Positions 33,385 to 64,000 of a DNA stretch of 64,000 bases are shown in pieces (positions within the stretch are counted from its first letter, which is position 1; the number at the start of each line of letters is the position of its first letter). The position numbers were made by a program, and so were the translations under genes. Under the pieces are notes generated by a model. It had not been told where the DNA came from. It ran no database searches and worked only from the letters and a program-made list of their open reading frames with translations. Origin of the DNA: a virus; the IMG/VR virus record IMGVR_UViG_3300042562_003539, positions 1 through 64,000 of that record; one strand, 5' to 3'.

Positions 33385-33636
33385 ATGGCAACAAAAAAAA
33401 CAACTTGTAATTTACCAGCTGGATTGAGCGAGTGTTGCATCAATCCATCTATTGTTTTTAAATGTCCTCCACATAAATCTTCAGAAGTATGTGTAGACAA
33501 TCAAAGCGATGGAGCTTATGTTCCTCGCACTGTTTCTTATGAAGAAGCATATCGTCAATGTAAGTATATCAAGCAAACAAGTTATCAAGGACAATATAAG
33601 CAATTTGGCAGCGCCTTCTCAAATAGCTTCAAATAG
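33385..33636 (+). CDS. Small Cys-containing protein upstream of the fibre gene
   Basis: An 83-residue protein with six cysteines (CNLPAGLSECC, FKCPPHKSSEVC, YRQCKYIKQ) and a Gln/Ser/Tyr-rich tail. No ribosome site is obvious next to the ATG. It ends eight bases before the first collagen-like gene, and may be a fibre-associated protein. Not recognised. Confidence 0.45.
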   Translation: MATKKTTCNLPAGLSECCINPSIVFKCPPHKSSEVCVDNQSDGAYVPRTVSYEEAYRQCKYIKQTSYQGQYKQFGSAFSNSFK

Positions 33637-33643
33637 GAAAAAA

Positions 33644-35128
33644 ATGATAAATCAAGGTAATCAAGAAAATTTTGATAACAAAGAAGAATTATTAATCAAT
33701 AATTCCGCCTACGTCAAAGCTTTACAGCTTGGAGAACAAGGATATCAAGGATATCAAGGAACTAAAGGAACTCAAGGAACTCAAGGTTATCAAGGACCCG
33801 GAATAGGATCTCAAGGAAGACAAGGACATCAAGGAAGACAAGGAGAGCAAGGAGAGCAAGGATATCAAGGAAGACAAGGAAGACAAGGTCTGCAAGGAGA
33901 AAAAGGACTAACGGGACCACAAGGAGGATTAGGATTAACAGGAGTAAAAGGGGATAAAGGGAATCAGGGTCAACAAGGAGAAAAAGGATCTGTAGGCATA
34001 GGAAACCAAGGACAACAAGGAAATCTAGGACTTCAAGGACGACAAGGAAATAAAGGACTTCAAGGAGACTTTGGAAATCAAGGAGAAAGAGGAAATCAAG
34101 GTTTACAAGGAAGAGACGGTTTTCAAGGCACTATTGGATTTCAAGGTCGTCAGGGATTTCAAGGAAATCAAGGAAATCAAGGTTTTCAAGGATTTCAAGG
34201 TCGCCAAGGATTTCAAGGCCGTCAAGGAGAAAAGGGCTATCAAGGCAGTCAAGGTTTTCAGGGATATCAAGGTCATCAAGGTCGTCAAGGATTTCAAGGT
34301 CGCCAAGGATATCAAGGTCATCAAGGATATCAAGGATATCAAGGTCATCAAGGACGCCAAGGATTTCAAGGTCGCCAAGGATTTCAAGGTCATCAAGGAT
34401 TTCAAGGTCGCCAAGGATTTCAAGGTCACCAAGGATTTCAAGGTCGCCAAGGAGAAAAAGGATTAATTGGAGTTCAAGGAGCAATAGGATTAACTGGGGC
34501 AATAGGCCCACAAGGAAAACAAGGAATAAACGGCTTAGGAGGAGTTGTTGGTCCGAAAGGGTCTCAAGGCGCTCAAGGCGCAATAGGGCCGAAAGGATCA
34601 ACAGGATCAACAGGCCCCAAAGGAGCAACAGGTGCGACAGGCCCCACAGGAGCAACAGGTGCGACAGGAGCAAAAGGATCAACAGGAGCAAAAGGAGCAC
34701 AAGGTTCAGCAGGAGCTAAAAATGCAATTGTTCCAATTATACAAGAATATTCTGAAAAATATGTTGGCTTGTCTTGCGTAGAAATGCCTGAAGTTCGGTT
34801 TGAAGATTTAGTTTTTACAGTTATTGGCAATCAAGGCACTAACAATCATAAAGATTTTATTAAATTAAATGATAGTTTTGTGCAAGTTTGCGATCCTCAG
34901 TCAATTGTCGTCGTCAGTGTAGTTCCATCAGCTCCAATTAACATTGGAGCATACATAGAAGGTGAATTTTTGTTTATCGAAGCAGAAAGCGAAAAGTTAA
35001 TTGAAAATGAAATAAAATTAACAATTAGACTATCAGGAATTAGATTGGGCTTTAGCGGCAGAAGATTTGTTGAATACACATACAAAGAAATGATTAAAAA
35101 CAATCAATTTTGGAATAGTTGGGAATAA
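33644..35128 (+). CDS. Collagen-like fibre protein 1
   Basis: A 494-residue protein. Residues 1-28 are a short head, residues about 29-362 are uninterrupted Gly-X-Y triplets, and residues 365-494 are a globular C-terminal domain. The triplets are mostly G-x-Q ([12 protein letters not shown]), with GPKG/GATG units nearer the end. The C-terminal domain shares [26 protein letters not shown] and RLSGIR with fibre 2 and is probably a trimerising or receptor-binding head. Collagen-like triplets form triple helices and are common in phage fibres. ATG 33644 follows AGGAAAAA; an upstream in-frame start at 33509 would overlap the previous gene. Located at the virion exterior by family analogy. Confidence 0.88.
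   Translation: MINQGNQENFDNKEELLINNSAYVKALQLGEQGYQGYQGTKGTQGTQGYQGPGIGSQGRQGHQGRQGEQGEQGYQGRQGRQGLQGEKGLTGPQGGLGLTGVKGDKGNQGQQGEKGSVGIGNQGQQGNLGLQGRQGNKGLQGDFGNQGERGNQGLQGRDGFQGTIGFQGRQGFQGNQGNQGFQGFQGRQGFQGRQGEKGYQGSQGFQGYQGHQGRQGFQGRQGYQGHQGYQGYQGHQGRQGFQGRQGFQGHQGFQGRQGFQGHQGFQGRQGEKGLIGVQGAIGLTGAIGPQGKQGINGLGGVVGPKGSQGAQGAIGPKGSTGSTGPKGATGATGPTGATGATGAKGSTGAKGAQGSAGAKNAIVPIIQEYSEKYVGLSCVEMPEVRFEDLVFTVIGNQGTNNHKDFIKLNDSFVQVCDPQSIVVVSVVPSAPINIGAYIEGEFLFIEAESEKLIENEIKLTIRLSGIRLGFSGRRFVEYTYKEMIKNNQFWNSWE
33737..34720 (+). repeat. Tandem 9-base Gly-X-Y coding repeats (fibre 1)
   Basis: About 980 bases built from 9-base units such as GGATTTCAA, GGTCGCCAA and GGTCATCAA. Units change length in multiples of three codons, so gain or loss alters fibre length but keeps the frame. 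Confidence 0.9.
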
Positions 35129-35166
35129 GCTATTTTATAATAAATCAAAAAAAGTATAGGAATAAA

Positions 35167-38100
35167 ATGGCAAATCAATGCAATCAATCAGCAACGCAAA
35201 GAACAGAAGAAGAATTATTGTGTGTTTTTGCAGACAATAACCAAGGTGGAATTACCGCACAAGATCTGCGAGATTTTGTTGTTTCGACTCAAATTGGACA
35301 GTCAAAACAAGGACCACAAGGAAACCAAGGGCAATCTGGCTCACAAGGCAACCAAGGCTCACAAGGAAGAGCAGGGTCTCAAGGCGCTCAAGGTGGTCCT
35401 AGTATTGTTGCGGGTCCACAAGGCGCACAAGGTACAAAAGGAAATCAAGGAAATCAAGGATTACAAGGAAATCAAGGAACTATTGGCCTTCAAGGCAGTC
35501 CTGATGGATTCCAAGGAATTCAAGGTCTTCAGGGCGAACAAGGAATCAAAGGTGAACAAGGTCTTCAAGGCGAACAAGGAATCCAAGGTGCTGGATTTCA
35601 AGGAGATATTGGCCTACAAGGCTATCAAGGGTTCCAAGGTCAAGGATATCAAGGACAAAAGGGAAGTCAAGGAATTGATGGAGCACAAGGACAACAAGGC
35701 GTTCAAGGTTTTCAAGGACCGCAAGGTGGAAAAGGCGCACAAGGAACAACAGGCGCAACAGGGATTGGAACACAAGGCGTTCAAGGGCTTCAAGGACTAC
35801 AAGGCAATCAGGGAATTCAAGGCGCTGGATATCAAGGCGCTCAAGGATATCAAGGAAGACAAGGAACTATTGGATTACAAGGAACTATTGGATTACAAGG
35901 ACAACAAGGACAACAAGGCCAACAAGGATTTCAAGGACATCAAGGAAGACAAGGTTTAATAGGAAATCAAGGCGAAAAAGGGTTCCAAGGAGAACAAGGG
36001 CGACAAGGATTTCAAGGACATCAAGGAAGACAAGGTTTAATAGGAAATCAAGGCGAAAAAGGGTTCCAAGGAGAACAAGGGCGACAAGGATTTCAAGGCC
36101 GTCAAGGGTTAACTGGAAATCAAGGATCAACTGGAAATCAAGGCGAAAAAGGGTTCCAAGGAAATCAAGGAAACCAAGGACAAGGATTCCAAGGAAATCA
36201 AGGATTCCAAGGATTCCAAGGAAATCAAGGATTCCAAGGATTCCAAGGATTCCAAGGATTCCAAGGATATCAAGGATTAGGATATCAAGGATACCAAAGC
36301 AACCAAGGATTCCAAGGGCTTCAAGGTTTCCAAGGAAATCAAGGCGAACAAGGGCTTCAAGGTTTCCAAGGAAATCAAGGCGAACAAGGCTATCAAAGTG
36401 AACAAGGATTTCAAGGTGAACAAGGAAGACAAGGAAGACAAGGCGAACAAGGATATCAAGGAGATAAAGGCGAACAAGGATATCAAGGATTTCAAGGAAT
36501 ACTAGGAAGTCAAGGATTTCAAGGAATACTAGGAAGTCAAGGAAATAAAGGAGATACTGGAAATCAAGGCGAACAAGGATATCAAGGAAATCAAGGCTAT
36601 CAAGGTCATCAAGGATTTACTGGAATTCAAGGAGATAGAGGATATCAAGGATATCAAGGTAGACAAGGAAGACAAGGCGAACAAGGCGATGTTGGATTAA
36701 CTGGCAATCAAGGAAGCCTAGGATATCAAGGAGAACAAGGATATCAAGGATTAGGATATCAAGGAGAAACAGGATATCAAGGATATCAAAGCAATCAAGG
36801 ATACCAAGGATACCAAGGATATCAAGGAATACAAGGATATCAAGGACTAGGATATCAAGGAGAAACAGGATATCAAGGATATCAAAGCAATCAAGGATAC
36901 CAAGGAAATCAAGGTGAACAAGGATATCAAGGACTAGGATATCAAGGAGAAACTGGAAATATAGGAGATGTAGGATATCAAGGATATCAAGGAAATCAAG
37001 GTGAACAAGGATATGTAGGACAACAAGGAAGCGAAGGTGAGCGAGGATACCAAGGATATCAAGGAATCCAAGGATTTCAAGGTCGTCAAGGATACCAAGG
37101 AAATCAAGGAGATAGAGGATATCAAGGATTTCAAGGAACTCAAGGAGCACAAGGAGATCTTGGATTAACTGGTTACCAAGGACAAATAGGCTATCAAGGT
37201 CTGCAAGGTGAACAAGGATATCAAGGTTTTCAAGGGTTCCAAGGATATCAAGGACTAGGATATCAAGGGTTCCAAGGATATCAAGGGTTCCAAGGATATC
37301 AAGGGTTCCAAGGATATCAAGGATTTCAGGGATATCAAGGATTTCAGGGATTCCAAGGTACTATTGGAATTACTGGCGCTCAAGGCATAACTGGCGCTCA
37401 AGGATCTCAAGGATTCCAAGGCTATCAGGGAAATCAAGGATTCCAAGGGTTTCAAGGATTCCAAGGTTACCAAGGAAATCAAGGTCATCAAGGTTATCAA
37501 GGGCTACAAGGCTATCAAGGTTATCAAGGGCTGCAAGGATTTCAGGGAAATCAAGGAAATCAAGGGCTGCAAGGTAGTCCCGATGGATTTCAAGGAGGCC
37601 AAGGTTATCAAGGGTTCCAAGGTCATCAGGGAGAACAAGGCTATCAAGGAAATCAAGGATTCCAAGGGTTCCAAGGTCATCAAGGAAATCAAGGATTCCA
37701 AGGGTTTCAAGGTCATCAAGGAAATCAAGGATTCCAAGGGTTCCAAGGAAATCAGGGAGAACAAGGCTATCAGGGAAACCAAGGATTCCAAGGGTTCCAA
37801 GGATTTCAGGGAAACCAAGGCTATCAAGGGTTCCAAGGAAATCAAGGCAATCAGGGAGAACAAGGATTCCAAGGGTTCCAAGGATTTCAGGGAAACCAAG
37901 GCTATCAAGGGTTCCAAGGAAATCAAGGCAATCAGGGAGAACAAGGATTTCAAGGATTCCAAGGATTTCAGGGAAATCAAGGTAATCAGGGAGAACAAGG
38001 GGCTGGTTATCAAGGAAATCAAGGTTACCAAGGAAATCAAGGGCTGCAAGGTAGTCCCGATGGATTCCAAGGAGGCCAAGGCTATCAAGGGTTCCAAGGG

Positions 38101-40242
38101 TTACAAGGAAATCAAGGCTATCAAGGGAACCAAGGCTATCAAGGGTTCCAAGGTCATCAGGGAGAACAAGGCTATCAGGGAAATCAAGGATTCCAAGGAT
38201 TCCAAGGCCATCAAGGAAATCAAGGATTCCAAGGGTTCCAAGGAAATCAGGGAGAACAAGGCTATCAGGGAAACCAAGGATTCCAAGGGTTCCAAGGTCA
38301 TCAGGGAGAACAAGGCTATCAGGGAAATCAAGGATTCCAAGGATTCCAAGGCCATCAAGGAAATCAAGGATTCCAAGGGTTCCAAGGTCATCAGGGAGAA
38401 CAAGGCTATCAGGGAAATCAAGGATTCCAAGGGTTCCAAGGTCATCAAGGAGAACAAGGTTATCAGGGAAATCAAGGTTTTCAAGGATTCCAAGGTCATC
38501 AGGGAGAACAAGGCTATCAAGGAAATCAAGGATTCCAAGGATTCCAAGGTTATCAAGGAAATCAAGGGTTCCAAGGGTTTCAAGGAAATCAAGGATTCCA
38601 AGGATATCAAGGAAACTTGGGATATCAAGGAGATGCTGGTGAATCTGGTGTTCAAGGACCGCAAGGCATTACAGGCACTGGACTACAAGGCAATCAGGGA
38701 TTACAAGGTCCTGCTGATGGATTTCAAGGATATCAAGGATATCAAGGATATCAAGGATCAATAGGGAGTCAAGGTGTTGCTGGAACAGGTGGTCAAGGCT
38801 ATCAAGGAAACCAAGGAACTCAGGGATATCAAGCATATCCTTTTGGATTTCAAGGCAGTCAAGGCAACGTAGGAAGCCAAGGATTCCAAGGACCAGCTAA
38901 TGGTTTTCAAGGAAGACAAGGCGCACAAGGAAGACAAGGATTCCAAGGAAACCAAGGAAATCAAGGAGAACAAGGAAATCAAGGCAATCAAGGAGCAGGA
39001 TTCCAAGGCAATCAGGGATTGCAAGGCCCTGCCGATGGATTTCAAGGATATCAAGGTAACCAAGGATATCAAGGTAACCAAGGATATCAAGGTAACCAAG
39101 GAAGACAAGGATATCAAGGAAGACAAGGATATCAAGGCAACCAAGGAAATCAAGGTTTTCAAGGTCCTGCCGATGGATTTCAAGGCATTCAAGGAAATCA
39201 AGGATCTTTATTTGGTCCAAAATATAAGTATGAGTCGGTATATGGTAATCAAGCTCCATCTGCTGGTTATATTCACTTTAATAATGCAACAATAAGTAAT
39301 GTAACTCAGATTTACATCAAAAAAGTTGATTATAACGGTATAGATGAAGGAAATTACATCGAAGATTTTATTGTAAATAATTACATTTACATTGAATCCG
39401 ACAATACAACAAATTTAGCAATATTTAATTCAAATGGAAGTCCCATTGGCTACCAGTCTGGGGGATATTCTGGATTTCCAATAGATTATTATTCAGTTCC
39501 AGTCAATTTTGTTTCTGGAAACGCATTAGTAAATCAAGAAATTTATAGCTTACTTACAGGAATAACAGGGAATCAAGGTTATCAAGGTTATCAAGGTTAT
39601 CAAGGAAATCAGGGTACAATTGGGGCACAAGGAAATCAAGGTGGACCAGCTGGATTTCAAGGCCAAACAGGAGCACAAGGGCCTAAAGGCGATCAAGGCG
39701 ATCAAGGTGATCAAGGTGAGCCGGGTCCTCTAGGAGAACAAGGTCCTCCCGGCGAAAATGGTTCTGGATTGCAAGGTTCAGCCGGAGCACAAGGCGCACA
39801 AGGCGCAGAAGGTCCACAAGGTGATAAGTATGCGATCCTTCCTGTTGTTACTTCTCAAGGAACTGAATATGTTGAGCTTATATGTGTAGAAATGCCAGAA
39901 GTTAGATTTGAAGATATCGTCATATTCAAGGTTGGTGGACTTGGACATAAAACAGAAAATGTTTCAAAATTTATTGATGATCGGTTGTTACAAGTTTGTG
40001 CCTTTAACACAATAAAACCTGTAAGTGTTGTTCCATCAATGCCAGTTATTGTTGGAGCTTATGTGAGAGACAATCTTATTATTATTGATGTGGAAAGCGA
40101 TAAGCTTATCAATAATCAAATTGAAGTGGTAGTGAGACTTTCTGGAATAAGGGCTGGCGCTGCACATAAGAGATTCGCAACCCATACCTACGAAGAAATG
40201 GTTAGGAATAATACATTCTGGAGTAGATGGAGAGAAGGTTAA
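35167..40242 (+). CDS. Giant collagen-like fibre protein 2
   Basis: A 1691-residue protein. The first 50 residues are a conserved-looking head with [18 protein letters not shown], an element seen at the N-termini of phage fibres and likely to attach to the virion. Residues about 47-1340 are Gly-X-Gln triplets (GYQGFQGNQ and similar) interrupted by [14 protein letters not shown] and GAGFQ. A beta-rich insert (about 1345-1455: [38 protein letters not shown]) is followed by a second short collagen stretch and a C-terminal head (about 1560-1691) related to that of fibre 1 ([35 protein letters not shown]). ATG 35167 follows AGGAATAAA; an ATG at 35119 is inside the previous gene. Confidence 0.88.
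35299..39203 (+). repeat. Tandem 9-base collagen-coding repeats (fibre 2)
   Basis: About 3.9 kb of near-continuous 9-base units (GGATATCAA, GGATTCCAA, GGAAATCAA, GGCGAACAA). Larger near-identical blocks occur, for example the [17 protein letters not shown] coding block near 37,565 and again near 38,041. Confidence 0.9.
35926..36087 (+). repeat. 81-base tandem duplication inside fibre 2
   Basis: Two adjacent, almost identical 81-base copies (27 residues, beginning [19 protein letters not shown]), the clearest recent duplication in the collagen region. Confidence 0.75.
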
Positions 40243-55415: not shown

Positions 55416-58400
55416 TTAGGCAGGATGATCATAAGGCAATTTGCCTTGAAATCCCGATCTTACAATTCTTGGGCTTGGCATAACAAATAGTCCTCCGCTC
55501 ATAGCGATGCCTATTTGTTGTTGCATATTTCCTGATATGAATGGTGCGCCAGAGGATGCTCCACGCATTCCGCTTTGATTAACGATATTTCCGCCCGATC
55601 CGACATATAATGGTTGTCCTTGGAACCCAGAAATTCCATTATATAGTCCAGAGTTTGCGGCAAATGATCCGACTCTTCCGACATATCCGTAATAATATAC
55701 TCTTCCTGTTGATCCGCTGTTAACAGTTCCGCTTGTTACGCCAATTGCTGGTAATCTCATTCCACTTGCTCTTTGCGCTCTTACCACTCTGCTTCCTGAT
55801 GCTATGCATACTGCTTTGATGCCTGAACATAGTTCCTGAAAAACAAAATAATCAAACATTGGTTGATTTGTATTTATTTCTGCTGTTTCTGCAAGATTGT
55901 ATGGGAATGCTGCATTCTGTCCACTTGCTGTTGTAAGACCAATTGTTCCAGATGAAAGCTTGCTGCTGGTCATGAATTGAGAATAAGTTACTGTATATAA
56001 TGTTCCACCATCAATTCCAGCTAGTAAATTTCTTGCTTGGCTTAGATTTGCACTTGTTTGAGCAGCAGTTGTGTCTGTTGAATATGTCAATTTATCTGCT
56101 GTTGCAACAATTGCGCCAGTATTTCCACCTGCAAAATAACCTTTTGTTCCTTCTGAAATTCCAGCAAGGTAATTTCTTGCTTGACTCAAATTTGCTGTTG
56201 TTTGAGCAGCAGTTGTGTCTGTTGAATATGTTAACTTGTCTGCTGTATTCAAACTGTTTGGTTGATTAACATCAGTAGTTCCACCAGCAAAATAACCTTT
56301 TGTTGTTCCTTCTGAAACTCCCGCCAAGCCGTATCTTGCTTGACTTAAATTTGCGCTTGTTTGTGCAACAGTAATATCTGTTGAATATGTTAACTTTTCT
56401 GCTGTTGAAACAGCAGCTACTCCAGTACTACTTCCACCAGCAAAATAACCTTTTGTTCCTTCTCCAGAACATCCAGCTAATCCATACTTTGCTTGACTTA
56501 AATTTGCGCTTGTTTGTGCAACAGTAATATCTGTTGAATATGTGATTTTATCTGCTGTTGCAACTTCTATGATATTATTAGTTCCGCCAACAAAATAACC
56601 TTTTGTTAAACCTTCTGATGCACCAGCCAAGTTTCCCCTTGCTTGACTCAAATTTGCAGTTGCTTGAGCAACAGTTGTGTCACTAGAATATGTTAATTTG
56701 TATGCTGTTGAAACAACACCACCACTACTATCACCACCAGCAAAATAACCTTTTGTTCCTTCTCCAGAACATCCCGCCAATGCATACCTTGCTTGACTTA
56801 AATTTGCAGTAGCTTGAGCAGCAGTTGTATCTGTCGAATATGTTAATTTATCTGCTGTTGCAACAACAACAATTCCATTAAATCCTCCAGCAAAATAACC
56901 TTGTTTTACTGGATTTGATAATATTTTTTCTCCAATATGCACATTATCTATTTGTCCGCTTCCAATATTTACATATTGTGTAGTATCACCAAAGAATGTT
57001 GGGAATCTTATGACACCGCTTCCTATATTTCCAGATCTTATTGTTTCGTTTGCAAGATGAACAGAAATAGAAACTTGTCCAGAAGCAATATTTCCGCTTC
57101 TTACTCCTGCGTTTGAGAAGTTATTTGTTGTGGCATCGCTGAATACAACACCAGAAACTATATTTCCACTTACAACTGAACCAGAAGCCATATTTGTAAA
57201 TCTAATTTCATTAGCTTCTGTTGTTGTTAGTTTGCCTGATATGACTAGGTAAGGTATAATTAAATAATTTTGTGCGCCATCAATTCCTGCTAAACTATTT
57301 CTTGCTTGGCTCAAATTAGCGGTTGTTTGTGCAGCAGTTGTATCAGTAGAAAATAATAGCTTATCCGTTGTTGTGACAGGACCGTTACCGCCAGCAAAAT
57401 AACCTTCAGTTGATCCTTCTGAAATTCCTGCTAATTCTCTTCTTGCTTGACTTAAATTTGCAGTAGTTTGAGCGGCAGTTGTATCTGTTGTGTATGTTAA
57501 TTTATATGCATTAAATGTTATGGCAAATGTACCACCACCAGCAAAATAACCTTTAGTTCCTTCACCAGAACATCCAGAAATATAGGCTGTTGCCGTGCTA
57601 AGATCCGCTGTTGTTTGAGCAGCAGTTGTATCATTTGAAAATGTTAATTTGTCTGCCGTTACTAAAACGGTGCTACTCTGTCCACCAGCAAAGTAACCTT
57701 TTGTTGTTCCTTCTGAAATTCCAGCAAGATAATATCTTGCTTGACTTAAATTTGCAGTTGTTTGAGCAACAGTTGTATCATTTGAATATGTTAATTTATC
57801 TGCTGTTGATAAACTGTTTGCACCATCAGTAGTTCCACCAGCAAAATAACCTTTTGTTCTTTCTCCTGAACATCCAGCCAATCCTTGTCTTGCTTGACTT
57901 AAATTTGCAGTTGTTTGAGCAGTAGTTGTATTTGTTGAATATACAATCTTGTCTGTTGTTGCAACATGTCCAGAAAACGAGGTTGTTGCTCCACCAGCAA
58001 AATAGCCATTAGTTGTATAATCAGAAATTCCCGTTAATTCATTTCTTGATTGACTTAGATTGGCAGATGTTTGAGCGGCAGTTGTGTCTGTTGAATATAA
58101 TATTTTGTCTGTTGTTGAAACATTTGCTCCTGTAGATCCACCTGCAAAATAACCTTGACTAATTAAAGTGGTTGTTGTTGATATTGATCCACTAACAATT
58201 GAGTTGTTATCGAACATGAAAGCGGTAATACCGCCAGACACATAAAATGCAGTAGGAATTGGCCAAACTCCATTTGCAAGGTTTTGACCTGTTACAGACT
58301 GGAGTGCAAAGTTTCCTGAAGCTAATGCAACATCTGCAAAGTTATAAGCAACAGTTGCATTCGCACCAACCATATTGAAAATAACTGTTCCGCTAGGGAC

Positions 58401-61400
58401 TGCACCACTTGTTACTGATGCATTACCAAAATGTATATTTCCAATTGCACCACTTGCTATGTTTCCGCTTCTAATTGAATTGTTTGAAAAGTCAAATGTA
58501 TAAGCAGTTCCAGAGCTTATAATACCGCTTACTATGGAGTTGTTATAAACAGATATAACAGAACCGCTTCCAAGAAGAACTGTGTTTATTTGGCCAGAAG
58601 ATATTGTATCATTGGTTATTTGACCGCTATTTATTTGTGACCCACCAATTGCTCCACTTGTTATTGAACCACTATGAACAGAAAATTCAGATAAATTTCC
58701 ACTTATGACACATCCAGAACTTATTGGTTGTTGGAAAATAGCATTGCTTGATATGTTGCCGCTGAAAATTGCATTGTTTCCAAATGCTCCCAATCCGCCT
58801 AATACTCCACTGCTGATTGCTCCACTGTAAATAGATTGATCTTGAAAAGCAGGATAAACAATTCTTCCTGAAGCGATAGATCCGCTAACAACTGAATTAT
58901 TGGCAAAATACCCACTTGTAACAGTACCAGAAATTGGCAAAAGTCCACCACTAGTGAAATGAAATCTTCCTATTTCGTTGCTAGAAATATTTCCACTGAA
59001 TATTGCTGCATTGCCAATATTTCCACTTCTTACTTGTCCAGAAAAAAGTACAATTTCTTGAGAAACCAAATGGAAATTATTTATTTGACCAGAAGCTATG
59101 CTGCCGCTGACTACAGTTATGCTGTTAAAGCTTCCACTCGTTGCCATGCCAGAAACGAAATAAGAACCGCTTGAAAAGTGAAATTGTCCGATTTGTCCTG
59201 ATGCGATGTTTCCACTGAATATCGATGCTGCATTAGCAAGGTTTCCGCTTCTTACTTGTCCAGAATAAAGTAAAATACCTTCGATAGAAATTTGGAATCT
59301 TCCAATGTTTCCAGAAGCTATACTACCGCTTACTACTGAATTATCGTCGAAGCTTCCACTCATGGCTAAACCAGAAATGAAATAAGCACCGCTTGCAAAA
59401 TGAAATTGTCCTATTTCGCTTGAAGAAATATTACCACTAAATATTGAGTTATTTCCAAAACTTCCACTTTGCGTTAGTCCAGAAACTAAATAAGCGCCAC
59501 TTGTAAAATGAAATTGTCCAACTTGTCCAGAAGCGATACTTCCACTTCTTGTAGAATTATCTCCGAAACTTCCGCTTTGAGCAAACCCAGAAAATAAATA
59601 AGCACCACTTGCAAAATGAAATCTTCCTATTCGTCCAGATGCTATGCTTCCGCTTACTACTGAGTTATTTCCAAAACTTCCGCTTTTTGTTAATCCAGAA
59701 ACTAAATAAGCACCACTTGTGAAGTTGAATTGTCCAACTTGTCCAGATGCTATGTTTCCACTTACGACTGAATTGTTTCCAAAATTTCCACTCATGGCTA
59801 AACCAGAAATGAAATAAGCACCGTTTGCAAAATGAAATTGTCCTACTTGTCCAGATGCTATATTGCCGCTAAATATTGAGCTATTTCCAAAATCACCACT
59901 TGTTGCTAATCCAGAAATTAAATAAGAACCGCTTGAGAAATGAAATTGTCCAACTTGTCCAGATGCAATATTACCGCTGAAAACATTAGAATAAAACGAT
60001 GTTGTCCCATCAACTCCAGCCAAACCAATCCTTGCTTGACTCAGATTTGCAGTAGTTTGAGCAACAGTTGTGTCTGTTGAATATGTCAATTTATCTGCTG
60101 TAGCAACACCACCACCTGCACTTCCACCAGCAAAATAACCTTTTGTCGATCCTTCTGAAATACCAGTTAATGATTGTCTTTCTTGGCTTAAATTAGCTGT
60201 TGTTTGTGCGGCAGTTATGTCTGTTGAATATGTTAATTTGTCTGCTCTTGCTGTGTTGGAACCAGTACTACCACCAGCAAAGTAACCTTTTGTGCCTTCT
60301 CCAGAACATCCTGCTAATAAAAATCTTGCTAGACTAAGATTTGCGCTTGCTTGTGCAGCAGTTGTGTCTGTTGAATATGTTAATTTGTATGCTGTGACAA
60401 CAACACCACCTGCGTTTCCACCAGCAAAATAACCTTTTGTTCCTTCCCCTGAACATCCAGCAAGATAAGATGTTGCTTGACTAAGATTTGCACTTGCTTG
60501 AGCAACGGTTGTGTCTGTTGAATATGTAATTTTATCTGCTGTTGCCTGCGTTGTTGGAGTTCCGCCACCAACAAAATAACCTTTTGTAGATCCTTCAGAA
60601 ACACCAGCTAAACCATCCCTTGCTTGACTTAAATTAGCTGTCGTTTGAGCAGCAGTTGTGTCTGTTGAATATGTTAATTTATCTGCTGTTGTGACCTTGG
60701 TATCAGTATCTCCACCAGCAAAATAACCTTTGGTTCTTTCTCCAGAAACTCCTGCCAAATCTCTTCTTGCTTGACTGATATTTGCAGTAGTTTGCGCCGC
60801 AGTTGTGTCTGTAGGATATGTCAATTTATCTGCTGTTGAAACATAAATACCATTAAATCCACCAGCAAAATAACCTGCACCGAATTGGGTTAAAGAAACA
60901 CCTATTATTCCGCTTGTTATTTGACCAGATGTAGGAAGAAGTGTTCCGCTTTGAAAATGTATTTTTCCTATTTGACCAGATGCTATATTTCCACTTGTTA
61001 CTGAATTATTCCCAAATTTACCACTTGTTACTAATCCAGAAATTAAATAAGAACCGCTTGAGAAATTAAATTGCCCAATTTGTCCAGATGCAATATTACC
61101 GCTGAAAATAGAGGAACCGCCCATCATTCCACTTGTTATTTGACCAGATGTTGGAAGAAGTGATCCACTTTGAAAATGTATTTTTCCTATTTGACCAGAT
61201 GTTATATTTCCAGATAAAACTGCATTATTGGCAATATTTCCGCTTTGAACTTGACCCGACGAAAGAATAATATTTTCAATAGAAATTTGATACTGTCCAA
61301 TTTGACCAGATGCAATATTGCCGCTTGTTATGGAGTTGTTTCCAAAGTCTCCACTTGTTAATAAACCAGAAATTAAATAAGCACCGCTCGCAAAATGAAA

Positions 61401-64000
61401 TTGTCCTATTTGACCAGATGTTATATTACCACTGAATATCGATGCTACATCGGCAAGGTTGCCGCTTTGCACCTGTCCAGAATAAAGTAAAATACCTTCA
61501 ATGGAAATTTGATATTGTCCAATCTGGCCAGATGCAATATTACCACTTCTTACCGCATTATCACCTAATTCTCCACTTGTAACCAAACCAGAAACTAAAT
61601 AAGCACCGCTCGCAAAATGAAATTGTCCAATTTGACCAGATGCTATATTGCCAGAATTTATAGAATTGTTGCCAAAAACTTTAGTTAATTCTTGTCCAAC
61701 TCCAGCCAATATATCCCTTGCTTGGCTTAAATTTGCACTTGTCTGAGCAATAGTTGCATCGGTTGAATATGTTAATTTATCTGCTGTTGAAACTAATGAT
61801 GGACCAAATCCACCTGCAAAATAACCTTTATTTAATCCTTCTGAAATTCCAGCTAATCCTGTCCTTGCTTGACTTAAATTTGCTGTTGTTTGAGCAGCAG
61901 TTGTGTCTGTTGAATATGTAGTTTTATCTGCTGTTGCAAAACTTCCGCCAGCAAAATAACCTTTTATTCCGTCTCCTGAAATTCCCGACAAATCTCTTCT
62001 TGCTTGACTTAAATTTGCAGTAGTTTGTGCGGTAGTTGTATCGTTTGAATATGTTAATTTTTCTGCTGTTGCCAAATAAGTAGATTCATTTGTAGCACCG
62101 CCAGCAAAATAACCTTTTGTTGATCCTTCTGAAATTCCTGCCAAACTTCCCCTTGCTTGACTGAGATTTGCTGTTGTTTGCGATATACTTGTATCAGTTG
62201 AGTATGTTAATTTATCTGCTGTTGAAACACCATTGGCTGCTCCCAAAGCTGTGGTTCCGCCAGCAAAATAACCTTTTGTTAGATAATGAGAAATTCCCGT
62301 TAAAATCCATCTTGATTGACTAAGATTTGCAGTTGTTTGCGATATACTTGTATCAGTTGAATATGTTAATTTTTCTGCTGTTGATACAATAACACCACCA
62401 GCCACAATTCTACCGCCAGCAAAATAACCTTTTGTTGATCCTTCTGAAACTCCAGCCAAACCTCCTTTTGCGGTAATTAGATTAGCAGATGCTTGGGCAG
62501 CAGTTGTGTCTGTTACATATGTTAATTTATCTGTCGTTGCGACATAACTATTTGTATTTCCACCAGCAAAATAACCTTTATCTCCTCCTCTGGTTGTTCC
62601 AATATTTATTCCAGCATTGAAATCATTTATTTGAAATCTTCCAATTTGACCAGATGCAATATTTCCACTGAATATTGCGTTATCTCCAACACTTCCACTT
62701 GTTACTAATCCAGAAATTAAATAAGTACCACTTGAAAAATGAAAGTTGTTTATTTGACCTGATGCAATATTGCCGCTTGTTATTGAATTATTGCCAAAAG
62801 CAAGCGTGTATTCTTGTCCAATTCCAACTACTTTGAATCTAGCTTGACTTAAATTAGCTGTTGTTTGAGCAGAAGTTGTGTCATTTGAATATGTTGTTTT
62901 ATCTGCTGTTGCAACACGATTAGAAGAATTTGTATCGCCTCCTGCAAAATAACCTTTTGAAGATCCTTCTGAAACTCCAGCTAGATCATATCTTGCTTGG
63001 CTCAAGTTTGCACTTGTTTGAGCAGCGGTTGTGTCAGTCGAAAAAATTATTTTGTCAGCGGTTGTCCTAATTCCGCTTGAAATTCCACCCGCAAAATACC
63101 CTCTATCTTGTCCCGCTATTGCACTTAATGATGTTCTTTTTACACTTAATTTTGCTGTTGTTTGAGTGGCAATTGTATCTGTTGAAAATGTTATTTTTTC
63201 AGCGGTATCAACAATACCTCCTCCAAAAACACTTGAAGTTTGTCCACCAACAAAATATCCTTTGCTAGAACCATCGCTCATTCCTGCAAGATTTCCTCTT
63301 GCTTGCGTCAAATCTGTACTTGTTTGAGCAACAGTTAAATCTGTTGAATATGTTATTTTATCTGTTGTTGAAACATAAGTTAAGGTGCCTGTATCACCTC
63401 CAGCAAAATAACCTTTTGTTCTTTCTCCAGAACAACCAAATAAACTTCTTCTGGCTTGTGTTAAATTCGCACTTGTTTGAGCTGAAGTTGTATCACTAGA
63501 ATATGTTGTCACATCTGTTGTAGAAGATGGACTTGAACTATATCCTCCAGCAAAATAACCTTTGATTGTACCTTCTGAAACTGAAGCCAAACCATGTCTA
63601 GCTTCACTTAAATTTGCCGATGTTTTAGCGGCAGTTGTATCATTTGAATAATTTATTTTATCTGCCGTTGAAACATTACTATTAGTATATCCACCAGCAA
63701 AGTATCCTTGGTTTCCGCCTCTGGATGTAACCAGATTGATCCCAAGACTAAAGCTGGTAATATTACTTATTTGACCAGAAGCAATATTGCCACTTACAAC
63801 TGAATTATTACTAAGATTTCCACTTGTAACAAATCCAGAAATTAAATAAGCACCACTCGCAAAATGAAATTTTCCAACTTGTCCTGATGCTATATTTCCA
63901 CTGAAAACAACATTATCACCTATGTTTCCACTTCTGACTTGCCCAGATTTAAGAACAATGGCATCAGCAGATAAATTATATTGTCCTATTTGACCTGATG
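55416..64000 (-). CDS. Giant multi-propeller adhesin/tail fibre (5' end outside window)
   Basis: An open frame of at least 2860 residues; the start is beyond 64000 and the stop is at 55416. Kelch-like units, each starting KGYFAGG...TADKLTYSTDTT followed by SANLSQARxxLAGxSEG, occur in five groups of exactly six. Between groups lie segments built from a unit of about 35 residues of the form SGNIASGQIGQFHFASG followed by AYLISGLVTSG. The last 185 residues form a separate C-terminal domain (TVTYSQFMTSSKLSSGTIGL, GRVYYYGYVGRVGSFAANSG, SPRIVRSGFQGKLPYDHPA). Six-bladed propellers with beta-helical spacers, likely a virion adhesin. Codon-level repeats are diverged, so the array is not recent. Confidence 0.85.
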   Translation of the reverse strand, partial: SGQIGQYNLSADAIVLKSGQVRSGNIGDNVVFSGNIASGQVGKFHFASGAYLISGFVTSGNLSNNSVVSGNIASGQISNITSFSLGINLVTSRGGNQGYFAGGYTNSNVSTADKINYSNDTTAAKTSANLSEARHGLASVSEGTIKGYFAGGYSSSPSSTTDVTTYSSDTTSAQTSANLTQARRSLFGCSGERTKGYFAGGDTGTLTYVSTTDKITYSTDLTVAQTSTDLTQARGNLAGMSDGSSKGYFVGGQTSSVFGGGIVDTAEKITFSTDTIATQTTAKLSVKRTSLSAIAGQDRGYFAGGISSGIRTTADKIIFSTDTTAAQTSANLSQARYDLAGVSEGSSKGYFAGGDTNSSNRVATADKTTYSNDTTSAQTTANLSQARFKVVGIGQEYTLAFGNNSITSGNIASGQINNFHFSSGTYLISGLVTSGSVGDNAIFSGNIASGQIGRFQINDFNAGINIGTTRGGDKGYFAGGNTNSYVATTDKLTYVTDTTAAQASANLITAKGGLAGVSEGSTKGYFAGGRIVAGGVIVSTAEKLTYSTDTSISQTTANLSQSRWILTGISHYLTKGYFAGGTTALGAANGVSTADKLTYSTDTSISQTTANLSQARGSLAGISEGSTKGYFAGGATNESTYLATAEKLTYSNDTTTAQTTANLSQARRDLSGISGDGIKGYFAGGSFATADKTTYSTDTTAAQTTANLSQARTGLAGISEGLNKGYFAGGFGPSLVSTADKLTYSTDATIAQTSANLSQARDILAGVGQELTKVFGNNSINSGNIASGQIGQFHFASGAYLVSGLVTSGELGDNAVRSGNIASGQIGQYQISIEGILLYSGQVQSGNLADVASIFSGNITSGQIGQFHFASGAYLISGLLTSGDFGNNSITSGNIASGQIGQYQISIENIILSSGQVQSGNIANNAVLSGNITSGQIGKIHFQSGSLLPTSGQITSGMMGGSSIFSGNIASGQIGQFNFSSGSYLISGLVTSGKFGNNSVTSGNIASGQIGKIHFQSGTLLPTSGQITSGIIGVSLTQFGAGYFAGGFNGIYVSTADKLTYPTDTTAAQTTANISQARRDLAGVSGERTKGYFAGGDTDTKVTTADKLTYSTDTTAAQTTANLSQARDGLAGVSEGSTKGYFVGGGTPTTQATADKITYSTDTTVAQASANLSQATSYLAGCSGEGTKGYFAGGNAGGVVVTAYKLTYSTDTTAAQASANLSLARFLLAGCSGEGTKGYFAGGSTGSNTARADKLTYSTDITAAQTTANLSQERQSLTGISEGSTKGYFAGGSAGGGVATADKLTYSTDTTVAQTTANLSQARIGLAGVDGTTSFYSNVFSGNIASGQVGQFHFSSGSYLISGLATSGDFGNSSIFSGNIASGQVGQFHFANGAYFISGLAMSGNFGNNSVVSGNIASGQVGQFNFTSGAYLVSGLTKSGSFGNNSVVSGSIASGRIGRFHFASGAYLFSGFAQSGSFGDNSTRSGSIASGQVGQFHFTSGAYLVSGLTQSGSFGNNSIFSGNISSSEIGQFHFASGAYFISGLAMSGSFDDNSVVSGSIASGNIGRFQISIEGILLYSGQVRSGNLANAASIFSGNIASGQIGQFHFSSGSYFVSGMATSGSFNSITVVSGSIASGQINNFHLVSQEIVLFSGQVRSGNIGNAAIFSGNISSNEIGRFHFTSGGLLPISGTVTSGYFANNSVVSGSIASGRIVYPAFQDQSIYSGAISSGVLGGLGAFGNNAIFSGNISSNAIFQQPISSGCVISGNLSEFSVHSGSITSGAIGGSQINSGQITNDTISSGQINTVLLGSGSVISVYNNSIVSGIISSGTAYTFDFSNNSIRSGNIASGAIGNIHFGNASVTSGAVPSGTVIFNMVGANATVAYNFADVALASGNFALQSVTGQNLANGVWPIPTAFYVSGGITAFMFDNNSIVSGSISTTTTLISQGYFAGGSTGANVSTTDKILYSTDTTAAQTSANLSQSRNELTGISDYTTNGYFAGGATTSFSGHVATTDKIVYSTNTTTAQTTANLSQARQGLAGCSGERTKGYFAGGTTDGANSLSTADKLTYSNDTTVAQTTANLSQARYYLAGISEGTTKGYFAGGQSSTVLVTADKLTFSNDTTAAQTTADLSTATAYISGCSGEGTKGYFAGGGTFAITFNAYKLTYTTDTTAAQTTANLSQARRELAGISEGSTEGYFAGGNGPVTTTDKLLFSTDTTAAQTTANLSQARNSLAGIDGAQNYLIIPYLVISGKLTTTEANEIRFTNMASGSVVSGNIVSGVVFSDATTNNFSNAGVRSGNIASGQVSISVHLANETIRSGNIGSGVIRFPTFFGDTTQYVNIGSGQIDNVHIGEKILSNPVKQGYFAGGFNGIVVVATADKLTYSTDTTAAQATANLSQARYALAGCSGEGTKGYFAGGDSSGGVVSTAYKLTYSSDTTVAQATANLSQARGNLAGASEGLTKGYFVGGTNNIIEVATADKITYSTDITVAQTSANLSQAKYGLAGCSGEGTKGYFAGGSSTGVAAVSTAEKLTYSTDITVAQTSANLSQARYGLAGVSEGTTKGYFAGGTTDVNQPNSLNTADKLTYSTDTTAAQTTANLSQARNYLAGISEGTKGYFAGGNTGAIVATADKLTYSTDTTAAQTSANLSQARNLLAGIDGGTLYTVTYSQFMTSSKLSSGTIGLTTASGQNAAFPYNLAETAEINTNQPMFDYFVFQELCSGIKAVCIASGSRVVRAQRASGMRLPAIGVTSGTVNSGSTGRVYYYGYVGRVGSFAANSGLYNGISGFQGQPLYVGSGGNIVNQSGMRGASSGAPFISGNMQQQIGIAMSGGLFVMPSPRIVRSGFQGKLPYDHPA
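55995..56905 (-). repeat. Propeller group 5 (six kelch-like blades)
   Basis: Six consecutive blades nearest the C-terminus, ending in AGIDGGTLY; mean blade about 50 residues. Confidence 0.8.
57260..58155 (-). repeat. Propeller group 4 (six kelch-like blades)
   Basis: Six blades beginning SQGYFAGGSTGANV and ending AGIDGAQNY. Followed by a spacer of about 120 residues. Confidence 0.8.
59990..60890 (-). repeat. Propeller group 3 (six kelch-like blades)
   Basis: Six blades beginning GAGYFAGGFNGIYV and ending AGVDGTTSF. Followed by the longest spacer, about 610 residues of SGNIASGQ-type repeats. Confidence 0.8.
61675..62593 (-). repeat. Propeller group 2 (six kelch-like blades)
   Basis: Six blades beginning DKGYFAGGNTNSYV and ending AGVGQELTKVF. 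Followed by about 260 residues of spacer repeats. Confidence 0.8.
62797..63720 (-). repeat. Propeller group 1 (six kelch-like blades)
   Basis: Six blades beginning NQGYFAGGYTNSNV and ending VGIGQEYTLAF, followed by a short spacer of about 65 residues. Spacer-type repeats also precede it up to the window edge. Confidence 0.8.

Follow-up and report, generated by a model that had tools for sequence, protein, structure and literature searches.

A predicted phage fibre protein with thirty kelch-like units in five groups of six along a repetitive stalk

The gene at the end of the window (the whole stretch of DNA analysed, 64,000 nucleotides, bases 1-64000 of a virus record of 68,911 bases) very probably encodes a phage tail-fibre-type adhesin in which five six-bladed kelch beta-propellers are arranged along a repetitive stalk and would serve in receptor binding. 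The source is a large aquatic phage, and its record also encodes UvsX-, SSB-, DnaB-, helicase- and polymerase-like genes. The frame (minus strand, 55416-63998) has no stop up to the window edge, and the rest of the record was used to complete it. The full ORF occupies contig 55416-64283, with an ATG at contig 64283, and encodes 2955 aa; the gene thus runs 283 nt past the window edge, which corrects the preliminary description. The domain map of this protein, hereafter the propeller fibre, is as follows.

55416..64000, minus strand: propeller-fibre ORF (contig 55416-64283, 2955 aa; ATG past the window)
Past the window, minus strand: aa 1-95, containing the fibre head MPITFPSSPTSGQRYEFSFNAWIYNG, common to the upstream rod paralogue
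63717..63998, minus strand: N-terminal spacer, aa 96-189 inside the window
62808..63716, minus strand: ring 1, six kelch-like units, aa 190-492
62586..62807, minus strand: spacer between rings 1 and 2, aa 493-566
61683..62585, minus strand: ring 2, six units, aa 567-867
60885..61682, minus strand: spacer between rings 2 and 3, aa 868-1133, with SGNIASGQI-type repeats
60000..60884, minus strand: ring 3, six units, aa 1134-1428 (used for the AlphaFold2 model)
58164..59999, minus strand: long spacer from ring 3 to ring 4, aa 1429-2040, with 36-aa repeats; first part modelled, at low confidence
57273..58163, minus strand: ring 4, six units, aa 2041-2337; 94% identical to L004 ring 3 and missing at the L011 site
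56910..57272, minus strand: spacer from ring 4 to ring 5, aa 2338-2458; L004 and L011 have similar sequence here, near-identical in the first part
56001..56909, minus strand: ring 5, six units, aa 2459-2761; divergent relative to L004 ring 4
55416..56000, minus strand: C-terminal domain, aa 2762-2955, common to the rod paralogue (50% identity) and relatives

The propeller fibre contains 30 units of the GYF[A/V]GG type, which form five groups with exactly six in each, as the preliminary description had claimed and as both the unit count and a refined profile bear out. The GYFxGG motif was found in 30 of 30 units, which are spaced 45-53 aa apart within groups, while the distances from the last unit of one group to the first of the next are 126, 317, 662, and 168 aa. 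Unit length and motif agree with the kelch type, whose repeat is about 44-56 aa long and has a di-Gly behind a hydrophobic strand. The refined profile revealed no hidden seventh unit in any group of the propeller fibre. If 30 units were split freely into five runs, the all-six arrangement would be one of 23,751 compositions. The conserved Trp of strand d is a hallmark of kelch sequences and not a requirement of the fold; the strand d region of the propeller fibre has it at that position in 0 of 30 units, and Ala is usual there.

The grouping in sixes is well supported as a rule of the family that extends beyond this single protein. Relatives were collected from viral contigs in two scans, one with ring 3 (64 loci) and one with a distant ring (55 loci); complete proteins were clustered at 70% identity and their units counted with the refined unit profile. 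Among the complete viral proteins, multiples of six were found in 58 of 62 clusters in the first set and, with sequences identical to the first set left out, in 24 of 28 in the second, so that the number of units is 6, 12, 18, 24, 30, or 36 in 82 of 90 non-redundant clusters. Every 6k junction exceeds all the others in length in 96 of 103 complete proteins with at least 12 units (multiples of six; near-identical proteins not collapsed), with medians of 67 aa at 6k and 48 aa elsewhere (p 4e-101). Many complete multi-ring proteins have short linkers and no stalk repeat between their rings, and the six-grouping is therefore independent of the spacer. Unit numbers per group that varied freely in related phages had been named beforehand as evidence against closed rings; the number was almost always six, and it persists between proteins down to about 26-35% identity. 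The family is almost without annotation, its members being hypothetical or assigned to a PHROG of unknown function, and bacterial genomes yielded one relative, sited in a MAG contig.

Some counts depart from the rule, or appear to. Each of the apparent exceptions L054 and L056 conceals one degenerate unit, L043 can be read as two sixes and a degenerate third group, and L114, L121, and one L067 protein have a gap sized as one missed unit. L083 and L084, with 17 and 16 units, are not multiples of six; together with L085 (18 units) they are identical or closely similar genes from three assemblies. L085 and L084 differ by exactly two units within one ring, flanked by identical sequence, which suggests an assembly collapse or a real deletion in L084. 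The short ORFs L118 (7 units) and L063:5321-5890 (4 units) are also off the rule. In the deposited genome of Synechococcus phage S-SKS1 (L066), the propeller genes are fragmented, with counts that are not multiples of six, and appear to be broken by stops or frameshifts.

Structure prediction of a single group, a check proposed in the preliminary description, which had named folds other than closed rings as a refutation, returned a six-bladed kelch propeller. The modelled fragment, ring 3 and the first part of the next spacer, was chosen to begin at a group boundary, and its alignment (A1) held 117 six-unit groups in register with rows cut at six units; with it, AlphaFold2 placed residues 1-295 at pLDDT 92-98, with four strands per unit. 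The single-sequence model was poor (pLDDT 56.5), and the alignment-based model was used instead. The Foldseek matches listed against the PDB are kelch-domain or SAKe6 entries, with TM 0.93 for the designed SAKe6 and 0.87-0.89 for Keap1, and VIA-align of the ring model gave Z 40.8 and 1.6 A over 275 residues (model residues 2-293). By sequence, and without recourse to the model, the A1 profile matched SAKe6FR at 3.7e-12 and KLHL12 at about 2e-6, and among the 117 relatives 32 matched Pfam Kelch_3 and 31 matched Kelch_KLHDC2. The earlier label "kelch-like" is upheld by these profile matches. Pfam and PHROG scans of the whole propeller fibre gave no kelch match, nor was Pfam Kelch_1 matched in its own record, so the kelch relation is visible at the profile level only. 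The modelled group is predicted to be a closed ring of four-stranded blades. In each ring strand b (GYFAGG) comes first and strand a (R-xx-LAG) last, an order that would allow the usual velcro closure and an exit on the entry side, so that a ring could sit as a side domain within the stalk. We infer the velcro closure (last strand a with first strand b) from this strand order and from whole-ring matches to closed propellers. Closure at six blades would fix the repeat number, and copy number would then change in whole rings only.

It might be supposed that the units form an open solenoid or a stacked beta structure and that recent duplication of whole groups, not closure, produced the sixes. 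Mean unit identity in the propeller fibre is 62% and alike within and between groups, and similarity rises slightly, from 0.618 to 0.637 (permutation p 0.001), when units from corresponding positions of different groups are compared; groups have therefore been copied to some extent. However, six is kept at about 26-35% identity, linkers mark the sixth junction, and known six-bladed propellers match the predicted fold along the full length of the group; we consider the duplication account hardly credible.

With the groups read as closed propellers, comparison of related phages shows, at the level of their genes, that whole rings are gained, lost, or swapped between near-identical flanks. The L004 record comes from a close relative of the source phage (UvsX 97% identical), and the 94% identity between its ring 3 and ring 4 of the propeller fibre goes with shared flanks. 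L011 has a few spacer residues in place of this ring and its short linkers; the upstream flank of the site has 93.8% nucleotide identity (aa 1936-2032) and the downstream flank is near-identical in protein. Ring 5 has diverged from L004 ring 4, and yet identity is 85-97% (40-aa windows) in the spacer that precedes it and in the C-terminal domain that follows. In another pair, rings of different ordinal number match: L014 ring 2 is 95% identical to L015 ring 1.

The most variable columns of the unit lie after GG (the B-C loop) and at the two residues after the conserved Arg (the D-A loop). This variability, with the frame otherwise conserved, was seen in 13 of 13 proteins examined, the propeller fibre and 12 others. 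The kelch topology puts these two loops on a single face, which is the ligand face of Keap1. Variable loops on one face of a conserved frame would give the propeller fibre five different binding surfaces, whose ligands would probably be host surface glycans or proteins. DGR diversification was considered and found no support: a reverse transcriptase (RVT_1) was absent from the 68.9-kb fragment, and the variable D-A codons, which often end in A and include GGA, AGA, CAA, GAA, and TGG, are without the retroelement pattern.

The neighbouring gene upstream (L001:9298-13524, contig 64297-68523, minus strand, 1408 aa) is a pure-stalk paralogue. Its N-terminal head is 79% identical to that of the propeller fibre over 66 aa, its C-terminal domain is 50% identical, and between them it consists of stalk repeat only, 37 aa long with a 5-residue sub-period; it matches tail-fibre PHROGs. 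The spacers had been described as a second, different repeat of about 35 residues, and the expected result as a string of propellers on beta-helical rods. A distinct repeat was found, of 36 aa here and 37 aa in the paralogue, and the string of propellers agrees with the predicted fold; the beta-helical fold of the rods is conjectural, as the spacer residues after ring 3 have pLDDT about 57 in the AlphaFold2 model and a spacer-only profile found no credible solved relative, giving chance-level matches only. A weak match of the A1 profile to a designed solenoid (E about 1e-3) was not repeated with the spacer-only profile.

In L004 the propeller gene likewise follows further fibre-like genes, which form a fibre cluster upstream. 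A fibre cluster and common fibre domains mark the propeller fibre, judged by sequence, as a candidate tail fibre or receptor-binding protein. The cluster, the common fibre ends, and the variable face together give good reason to regard it as an adhesin, and we likewise infer its location in the virion, its receptor binding, a fold for its stalk, and any trimeric state.

Propellers could also be structural spacers or decoration of the virion or tail surface. Phage CBB has kelch-type proteins, one of which (CBB_552) is in the mature virion (PMC5259590), and the fold search lists 'virion structural' proteins of PhiPA3, Phabio, and Noxifer. Nevertheless, variability in the loops of one face suits ligand diversification better than a passive structure, and the rings are swapped between near-identical flanks; a purely structural role therefore seems unlikely to us, though it deserves some weight. 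Alternatively, the rings may bind environmental or non-host material such as mucus, algal polysaccharide, or particles, placing the phage in its niche and not on its final receptor. A fibre with several different rings would be well fitted to weak, multivalent binding of glycans, and the relatives are aquatic, for example Synechococcus phage S-SKS1 and a seawater single-cell virus. We judge this niche role improbable, and slightly more so than a structural one.

The system may be modular, with complete six-bladed propellers as interchangeable cassettes on a stalk, whole rings being gained, lost, or exchanged through recombination within common repeats and each ring bearing a diversified face, to give combinatorial multi-receptor fibres without a retroelement; our confidence in this broader proposal is evenly balanced. 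Should the rings be receptor binders, a fibre of this kind would carry several different heads exchanged as whole domains, and host range could change by a route distinct from point mutation or retroelements. Propeller fibres also offer a natural test of the constraint that ring closure places on the growth of repeats: nothing keeps single units from recombining, and yet hardly any number but a multiple of six persists in the 90 protein clusters.

The propeller fibre resembles Keap1, KLHL12, and the designed SAKe6 in predicted fold, blade number, the GG strand, the following Y/D and R positions, and profile-level sequence, but lacks the canonical kelch Trp and a BTB domain and carries several rings per chain on a stalk. 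The receptor-binding protein of Staphylococcus phage phi11 reportedly uses a beta-propeller for host recognition at the phage tail; it is said to have one propeller per chain, of a family and blade number that differ from those of the propeller fibre. Kelch genes of S-SKS1 and of Kyanoviridae virus AG-345-L05 belong to the same unit family by sequence. They are hypothetical or unannotated and the S-SKS1 copies fragmented; the AG-345-L05 genes are three-ring, with short linkers joining the rings in place of a stalk repeat. Phage CBB (CBB_550, 552, and 554; PMC5259590) likewise has kelch propellers from a large phage, one in the virion, and one CBB kelch protein is among the fold search matches; these proteins are distant in sequence and are not described there as ring strings on a repeat stalk. 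In WRAP, from Nostoc Npun_R6612, 14 tandem blades split into two closed seven-bladed rings (PMC6805158), but it is of WD40 lineage, has near-identical blades, and has no stalk between its rings. A kelch-repeat protein is present in cyanophage P-HM2 (PMC3037559), marine long-read viral data are enriched in kelch repeats (PMC9238414), and the amplification of single blades into propellers is an established process (PMC9218822). Phage virions with kelch propellers and propellers in tandem have both been described before; our search of the open literature found no description of a multi-ring kelch fibre with whole-ring exchange.

Other long or repetitive fibre-like genes were observed. Two collagen-like fibre genes lie side by side at 33509-40242 of the window; their products, of 539 and 1707 aa, have a very high content of G-x-Q-G-type repeats. 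A 726-aa fibre-like protein at L004:2086-4266 has stalk repeats at its end and an N-terminal region lectin-like in look, with no Pfam match. The L014 record (G002:C1, about 97383-98960, minus strand) has an open frame of 5059 aa that carries the stalk repeat and shares its region with the L014 propeller gene.
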